Shown: positions 15,758 to 17,713 of the stretch, in pieces
Layout of the letters: the number at the start of each line of letters is the position of its first letter
Position numbering within the stretch: the first letter of the stretch is position 1
From: Candidatus Pelagibacterales bacterium
GTDB taxonomy: Bacteria > Pseudomonadota > Alphaproteobacteria > TMED109
Assembly (NCBI GenBank): GCA_002715505.1
Contig: PAZF01000002.1
Span: 118,644-182,643, forward strand
Length of the DNA stretch: 64,000 bases
Reading direction: 5' to 3'
Translations under genes and position numbers: made by a program
The notes under the pieces: generated by a model
Databases searched by the model: none
What the model was told of the DNA's origin: nothing
The model's input: only the letters and a program-made list of their open reading frames with translations

Positions 15758-16114
<357 letters not shown>

Positions 16115-16170
16115 AAAGATAATTTAACTATTATAGTTGACATCAGATTTAAACATAATAATATAGTATA

Positions 16171-16220
16171 ACGTTCAATCTACTGAGTAGATCGGAAGTA
16201 AGCTTATGCTGAAGGAACGC
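16171..16220 (+). promoter_or_regulatory. glutamine riboswitch (glnA RNA motif) aptamer candidate
   Basis: ACGTTCAATCTACTGAGTAGATCGGAAGTAAGCTTATGCTGAAGGAACGC: P1 CGTTC(16172-16176):GAACG(16215-16219), P2 ATCTAC:GTAGAT, P3 AGC:GCT, with CGGAAGUAAGC and GAAGGAACGC conserved strings; directly 5' of glnA. Confidence 0.85.
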
Positions 16221-16309
16221 GGTAAGAATGCTGGAAATACATTTCATTTAAATATACTACCGTTGTAATCAATAAGCTCTTTTTTTAATAAGATTATATG
16301 GAGTGAGAA

Positions 16310-17713
16310 ATGACAGAAAAAATTTTTAAAATGATAAAAGACAATGAAGTAAAATTTGTTGACTTTAGATTTACAGACCCAAAAGGAAAATGGCAGCATA
16401 CTGCTCAAACTGTTGAAAGTGTTGATGAAGAACTGCTTAAAAATGGAATTATGTTTGATGGTTCTTCTATTTCAGGATGGAAATCTATAAACGAGTCTGA
16501 TATGATACTTAAACCTGATTTAAATACAGCAGTGCTGGATCCTTTTACTGCTCAGCCTCAGCTAATAATTTTTTGTAATGTAATAGAGCCATCTACAGGA
16601 GAAATGTATTCAAGATGTCCTAGATCAACTGCAGTAAGAGCTACTGAATACTTGAAAAATAGCGGTATTGCAGATACAGCATATTTTGGACCAGAAGCAG
16701 AGTTTTTTGTTTTTGATGACGTTAAATGGAATGTTTCTATGCATGATACATTTTATCAAATAGACTCGGATGAAGGCCCATACAACTCAGGGAATTCCTT
16801 TGATGGTGGTAATATTGGACATAGACCCTCAATTAAAGGAGGTTATTTTCCAGTTCCTCCTGTAGACTCTATGACAGACATGAGAGCTGAAATGGTAGGA
16901 ACTATGATGGAAATGGGTCTTGAAATGGAAAAACATCATCATGAAGTTGCTCCTTCACAAAATGAACTAGGTGGAAAATTTGATGAACTATTATCATGTG
17001 CAGATGATTTGCAAAAGTATAAATATGTAGTTCATATGGTTGCACATTCATATGGAAAAACAGCTACCTTCATGCCAAAGCCTGTAATAGACGATAATGG
17101 ATCTGGTATGCACTGTCATCAATCTTTATGGAAGGGTAATTCTCCTTTATTTGCTGGTAATGAATATAGTGGTTTATCTGAAAGTTGTCTTTTTTATATA
17201 GGAGGTATCATTAAACATGCTAAAGCTATAAACGCTTTTACTAATTCTACTACAAACAGTTATAAAAGATTGGTTCCAGGTTTTGAAGCTCCAACTATTT
17301 TAGCCTACTCTGCTAGAAATAGATCTGCTTCTATTAGAATTCCTTATGCGGAGGGAGATAAAGCTAAGAGACTAGAAGTAAGATTTCCTGATGCTGCATC
17401 AAATCCATATTTAGCCTTTTCCGCTATGCTAATGGCAGGATTAGATGGAATAAAAAATAAAATTCATCCTGGAGAAGCTATAGATTTTGATTTATATGAA
17501 GCTTCAGAAGATCAATTAAAGAATCTTAACACAGTAGCTACTTCATTAGAAAATGCGTTAGACTCACTTCTTAAAGATAAATCTTTTTTAACTGAAGGAG
17601 GAGTTTTTACTGATGATCAAATTGAAGGATATATAGAATTAAAAAGAGATGAAGTCAGTAAATTAAATAACTCTACTCATCCAGTAGAGTTTGATATGTA
17701 TTACAGCGTTTAA
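16310..17713 (+). CDS. glnA: glutamine synthetase type I
   Basis: 467 aa; [38 protein letters not shown]. Confidence 0.98.

Follow-up and report, generated by a model that had tools for sequence, protein, structure and literature searches.

A type-1 glutamine riboswitch occupies the place of lost NtrC control at glnA in a marine alphaproteobacterial lineage

Here, we report that the leader of glnA in a small-genome marine alphaproteobacterium carries a type-1 glutamine riboswitch (a confirmed member of an RNA class that is known already), and that at this locus the RNA occupies the place of the lost control of glnA by NtrC, GlnD and a sigma-54 promoter, a conclusion that is well supported by comparison within the family. 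Folding of the leader further suggests that the element would act as a translational OFF switch doing the job of NtrC, and as a complete explanation we regard this as reasonably probable. Unless a contig is named, positions are those of the window, that is, the whole 64,000-nt stretch of DNA that was analysed.

Results

A type-1 glutamine aptamer lies between glnB and glnA

An earlier sequence-only reading of this DNA had proposed a glutamine-I riboswitch with three helices at 16168-16222, between glnB and glnA of an alphaproteobacterium. The sequence that it quoted is present in the window, and a search with the Rfam covariance model, which it had suggested as a check, placed RF01739 at 16170-16223 (+) with 58.3 bits, far above the gathering score of 35 (cmscan; E 2.7e-12 in 601 bases and 2.9e-10 across the whole window). 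The match spans the full model (all 53 positions), P1, P2 and P3 all fit it, the earlier coordinates were off by 1-2 nt only, and both neighbouring genes were verified by Pfam (Table 1). The three-way junction of these helices, with the conserved CGGAAGUA and GAAGGAACG strings, is present in the model alignment as well as in the MFE fold. The glutamine-II model (RF01704) gave no match up to E 10 in 15900-16500 (cmscan). The assignment of the host to the Alphaproteobacteria likewise agrees with its genome relatives and with the named close relatives TMED93, TMED62 and 'Rhodospirillaceae' AG-390-K05.

The fold of the element is no more stable than its dinucleotide shuffles (z-score 0.11). Since stability is uninformative here, the case for the aptamer consists of the model score, the further copies in the genome, the conserved position and covariation. 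Compensatory changes are found in both P2 and P3 across 151 distinct non-cyanobacterial aptamers: pair 1 of P2 is A-U in 109 and U-A in 35, pair 1 of P3 is A-U in 102, G-C in 35 and G-U in 13, and standard pairs make up 84-100% at P2 pairs 1-6 and P3 pairs 1-3, all of these being counts that ignore kinship (tree relatedness uncorrected). Moreover, the aptamer recurs at this position in seven genomes belonging to two genera (our own genome and six further ones; g1 and g2), and the earlier expectations of covariation in relatives and of conservation in related glnB-glnA gaps were both borne out. The ligand of the window aptamer is presumably glutamine.

The aptamer lies within a glnB-glnA gap of 195 nt, with 86 nt separating it from the start of glnA. 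The sigma-70-type promoter-like site preceding it is weak when taken alone (5 such sites were found vs 4.5 in shuffles), and its TTGACA is retained at the same spot in the g1 and g2 relatives. Transcription from this site would begin at or just before the aptamer; if the site is used, the glnA transcript would thus be separate and glnB would remain outside riboswitch control.

Table 1. Features of the glnB-glnA locus in window coordinates.
Feature	Position	Strand	Basis
glnB, P-II protein, 112 aa	15776..16114	+	ORF; Pfam PF00543
Sigma-70-type promoter-like site, TTGACA, 16 nt, TAATAT	16137..16164	+	motif match, weak alone
Type-1 glutamine riboswitch aptamer (RF01739)	16170..16223	+	cmscan; conserved in relatives
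P1, CGUUC with GAACG	16172..16176 with 16215..16219	+	model alignment, RNA fold
P2 hairpin, AUCUAC-UGA-GUAGAU	16178..16192 (strands 16178..16183 and 16187..16192)	+	model alignment, fold, covariation
Conserved junction CGGAAGUA	16193..16200	+	model alignment
P3 hairpin, AGC-UUAU-GCU	16201..16210 (strands 16201..16203 and 16208..16210)	+	model alignment, fold, covariation
Putative anti-P3 5' strand, AGCUUAU	16201..16207	+	complementarity with 16272..16278; ligand-free folds of relatives
P4, predicted antisequestor part, GCGGUA with UACCGU	16219..16224 with 16258..16263	+	RNAalifold consensus, folds
Putative sequestering stem, 5' arm	16255..16270, pairing with 16292..16305 including Shine-Dalgarno GGAG	+	aptamer-formed fold
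Anti-P3 3' strand, AUAAGCU (function putative)	16272..16278	+	
Shine-Dalgarno GGAG of glnA	16300..16303	+	sequence
glnA, glutamine synthetase type I, 467 aa, controlled gene	16310..17713	+	ORF; Pfam PF03951 + PF00120

Within the family, genera with the glnA riboswitch lack the sigma-54-like site, NtrC and GlnD

Our family comparison covered 29 genomes of genera g1-g8, with our own genome in g1 (completeness 97.6, 91, 74 and 72% for the g1 genomes and 93% at best for g2). NtrC above the TIGR01818 cut-off occurs in g3, g5, g6 and g8, bar two incomplete g6 genomes, and the same profile search found none in any g1, g2 or g4 genome; the best match in our own genome reached 315 bits vs a cut-off of 558.6 and covered profile positions 135-463 only. 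GlnD (TIGR01693) is encoded in g3, g5, most of g6 and all of g8 and is absent from g1, g2 and g4, while GlnE (PF03710) was found only in g8, whose genomes are large (2.5-3.8 Mb), and is missing from our own genus g1 and from g2. GlnB of the window retains the usual uridylylation tyrosine motif RGAEY, though no GlnD was detected in its genome.

The promoter regions divide the family in the same manner. A sigma-54-like site (TGGCAC-N5-TTGC-like) lies 54-69 nt before glnB in 16/16 genomes of g3 and g5-g8; upstream of glnB/glnA of the g1/g2 genomes it was found in 0/6, even with up to 2 mismatches allowed, and in Markov controls it occurred in ~3% of 350-nt stretches. The glnB-glnA gap is 22-49 nt in g3 and g5-g8, too short for the aptamer, and 190-203 nt in all six g1 and g2 genomes. 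Genera without the glnA riboswitch keep the sigma-54-like site, and most of them also NtrC and GlnD. On the GlnA tree g1 and g2 form one clade (support 100/100), which argues for a single replacement event rather than many. Hence, the loss of the sigma-54-like site, NtrC and GlnD and the gain of the glnA riboswitch are strongly correlated and fall, as a single event, on one branch.

The sequence-only reading had also suggested that the riboswitch may replace NtrC-type control of glnA. This stands as far as NtrC, GlnD, GlnE and the sigma-54-like site are concerned, all of which are gone in g1/g2, but RpoN is still encoded in g1; sigma-54 itself has thus been kept and only its use at glnBA lost. 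Since no sigma-54 sites were found before amtB in g3, g5 or g6, the replacement case is restricted to glnA, where we consider it quite probable that control was taken over from NtrC by the riboswitch.

Further copies in the genome and their fate in relatives

Our own genome (G000) contains four RF01739 copies above the gathering score: one upstream of glnA, one upstream of amtB and two in tandem ahead of a 35-aa ORF. The amtB copy (C2:93819-93868) lies upstream of a gene of 398 aa, and without ligand most of this aptamer is predicted to base-pair with a conserved tail (the AAAGUAGAAU block). The tandem pair (C12:68288-68341 and 68345-68396) is situated 34 nt upstream of the 35-aa ORF, with the two aptamers 3-5 nt apart; this basic ORF (MDRMSLYYFTKERQ...) stops just before a terminator-like hairpin, and the same arrangement is seen in two g2 genomes. 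The encoded protein has no Pfam match. Between g1 and g2 the ORF differs by 3, 6 and 13 changes at codon positions 1, 2 and 3, respectively, and since these changes fall mainly at third positions, it is probably translated. In genera g3 and g6, tandem aptamers instead precede a secreted protein of 91-123 aa (a signal peptide followed by AGPTG...), of which the fragment scanned gave no Pfam match; these genera keep NtrC.

Two g2 genomes contain a decayed aptamer (33 bits, below the gathering score) at sites from which amtB has been deleted or at which a remnant of it survives: in G023 it stands beside a 47-aa amtB remnant, and in G026 another gene comes next downstream. These decayed aptamers are a natural record of amtB loss followed by riboswitch decay. 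The aptamer of G004 carries substitutions in the core and P3 and scores 43.8 bits.

Predicted switching between two leader folds

We folded six glnA leaders under three conditions: without constraint, with the aptamer imposed and with an alternative hairpin imposed. In the mechanism that these models favour, the aptamer would start a separate glnA transcript whose leader, at low glutamine, would adopt a long irregular hairpin with AGCUUAU (the P3 5' strand plus its loop) paired to AUAAGCU, and GCGGUA to UACCGU. This ligand-free hairpin would expose the Shine-Dalgarno sequence, and glutamine synthetase would be made. With glutamine bound, P1 and P3 would form and free the downstream strand, which would then pair with the Shine-Dalgarno region and stop translation, i.e., the end product would exert feedback repression.

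The [AG]UAAGC of the anti-P3 3' strand is conserved in all g1/g2 glnA leaders, and AUAAGCU is followed by a U run (16280-16286), kept in shorter form in relatives. The predicted alternative hairpin additionally pairs UGA (16210-16212) with UCA (16269-16271). The P4 pairs are invariant apart from one gap (RNAalifold, 6 leaders), and in the folds UACCGU alternatively contributes to the arm predicted to sequester the Shine-Dalgarno region; in the aptamer state of the window leader, 16244-16249 is moreover predicted to pair with the glnA start codon. The alternative hairpin was the best free fold in 4/6 leaders (G014, G002, G001 and G004). When it was forced, the mean open probability of the Shine-Dalgarno sequence was 0.50-0.65 in 6/6 leaders, and when the aptamer was forced it was 0.01, 0.19, 0.01, 0.02, 0.33 and 0.45, the two computations using slightly different stretches of 5 and 4 nt. 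In the window leader itself the two states are near-equal (ensemble -27.0 and -27.6 kcal/mol), and the Shine-Dalgarno sequence is mostly hidden either way (open 0.07 in the free and 0.01 in the aptamer-forced fold). Shuffled tails matched the observed closing, relative to the unconstrained fold, in 0, 0 and 1 of 60 cases for three leaders; for the other three the closing was no better than in shuffles (11, 9 and 11 of 60). A terminator scan of the glnA leader found no terminator-like site.

As the alternative helix is conserved and does not covary, six related leaders cannot prove it. Their consensus fold recovers P2, P3 and P4 but puts a competing helix in place of P1, and the MAFFT alignment of the tails misplaces AAGC; hence, neither provides a covariation test of the switch. 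A general pairing of the P3 loop with the tail was rejected: it covaries between paralogues (UUAU/AUAA in glnA, UUGU/ACAA in the amtB copy from a single g1 genome), but the g2 amtB copies do not conform to it.

Discussion

Sign and level of the predicted switch

Given that the forced-aptamer folds close the Shine-Dalgarno sequence and that the leader has no recognisable terminator, we favour, as a prediction, an OFF switch that acts on translation. The same aptamer and ligand could also act by transcription attenuation, with the AUAAGCU hairpin and the adjoining U run forming a weak terminator, or with the structure that competes with this hairpin serving as an antiterminator. The U run that comes straight after the alternative hairpin's 3' strand, together with its shorter counterpart in the relatives, would suit this reading; however, the terminator scan was empty, the stem is rich in A and U and its loop long and irregular, and a terminator formed in the ligand-free state would shut glnA down under glutamine scarcity, the opposite of what a biosynthetic gene requires. 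We regard attenuation as rather unlikely. That glutamine switches glnA on is, in our view, improbable, although the one at cyanobacterial gifB, the type-1 riboswitch that has been characterised together with its target, does activate expression (PMC6316151). The gifB product inhibits glutamine synthetase, so that turning gifB on and turning glnA and amtB off would have one and the same purpose, and the predicted folds close the Shine-Dalgarno sequence once the aptamer forms. An OFF switch at glnA would be consistent both with an end product repressing its own synthesis and with the ON sign at gifB.

Doubts about the aptamer itself carry even less weight. The decayed copies in the two g2 genomes and the substituted aptamer of G004 might indicate a relic, or an RNA with a changed ligand, that no longer responds to glutamine, but the window copy retains the conserved core and all pairs, and decay occurs where the gene is gone, which suggests that selection is tied to the gene; we hold such a loss of function to be very improbable. 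A chance match or assembly contamination, for which we saw no sign, can practically be dismissed in view of the E value across the window, the four copies in the genome and the recurrence of the aptamer at this position in single-cell and metagenome assemblies that are independent of one another.

Relation to known systems

A 2010 study described the glnA motif in cyanobacteria and in marine samples, adjoining genes for glutamine synthetase (glnA), P-II, glutamate synthase and ammonium transporters and sometimes occurring in tandem (PMC2864571); a later count lists 157 doublets and 4 triplets (PMC9481103). A 2018 review describes the class as restricted to cyanobacteria, with the links to glnA and amtB in uncultured environmental sequences only, and presents gifB of Synechocystis, which encodes a glutamine synthetase inhibitor, as the characterised type-1 example and an ON switch (PMC6316151). 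Our literature search, which lay mostly outside subscription papers, found no description of the class in alphaproteobacterial hosts. The element described here shares with this class the model, the three-way junction, the conserved strings and the association with glnA, P-II and ammonium transporter genes; unlike the characterised cyanobacterial members, it belongs to an identified alphaproteobacterial lineage and is predicted to be OFF. The glutamine-II or Downstream-peptide motif (RF01704) binds the same ligand, has some sequence features in common and sits before small cyanobacterial ORFs (PMC2864571), but contains a pseudoknot (PMC6698751), and the window element does not match it. The same aptamer class is carried by the marine phages Melnitz and Mosig and is thus shared among streamlined marine bacteria and viruses; there, however, it is phage-encoded and beside phage genes, and the OM43 host has none (PMC9004378).

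The statement of the earlier reading that the class is known mainly from cyanobacteria and marine metagenomes agrees with the 2010 report but needs to be widened, as the class is also common in several uncultured marine proteobacteria. A pattern scan of named genomes returned at least 118 stretches, mostly in single-cell genomes from marine Alphaproteobacteria and SAR86, and among the matches listed glnA was the commonest target. The aptamer was present in 6/387 alphaproteobacteria sampled across the class and in 1/399 genomes sampled across the phylum, the latter being our own genome, which marks it as a feature of certain marine lineages.

Compared with NtrBC/sigma-54 control of glnBA, the riboswitch has the same target gene and the same ultimate signal (glutamine status); the former is a protein cascade of GlnD, P-II and NtrC, of which g1 has neither NtrC nor GlnD nor the promoter site. 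An owner has thereby been found for the glnA- and amtB-linked glutamine riboswitches hitherto assigned to uncultured marine sequences, and a single family offers a before-and-after comparison: the sigma-54 site kept, mostly together with NtrC and GlnD, or the site gone and a riboswitch between glnB and glnA. Nitrogen regulation without the Ntr cascade in streamlined ocean bacteria thus becomes testable through a small leader RNA. The case gains interest from this clean evolutionary swap at glnA, in which a protein cascade gave way to an RNA switch whose predicted sign is the reverse of that characterised at cyanobacterial gifB.

One might go further and suppose that nitrogen control is RNA-based throughout the lineage, with glnA and amtB repressed by glutamine and the tandem pair conferring a near-digital response on the conserved 35-aa basic protein, which would curb glutamine synthetase as the cyanobacterial inactivating factors do. 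We consider this wider scheme decidedly improbable, and the role given to the small protein is a guess.

Glutamine riboswitches at other marine loci

Other loci encountered in the course of this work show further arrangements. Glutamine riboswitches of SAR86 and other marine proteobacteria (L033, L036, L055, L035, L066, L040, L048 and L136), some of them occurring as triplets, precede genes that include a Gcw_chp (PF09694) protein, a TonB-receptor-like gene, a second glutamine synthetase type, glutamate synthase subunits and a putative circularly permuted ATP-grasp gene, all target names other than Gcw_chp being assigned by eye only. Tandem arrays with a linker of at least 14 nt (from L005, L006, L007 and L032-L149, many of them close relatives) have, among the matches listed, CAUGC in the linker and GCAUG after the second aptamer in 51/52 distinct cases, and usually hold a second complementary block, AGUUAU with AUAACU or AUAGCU. 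A CAUGC/GCAUG helix enclosing the second aptamer is likely from these sequences, and we know of no earlier description of it. Finally, in other marine bacteria (L017, L078, L092 and L111) the riboswitches lie upstream of short, mostly basic ORFs of 38-66 aa, one of them truncated at the locus boundary, which resemble the small proteins under cyanobacterial glutamine riboswitches.
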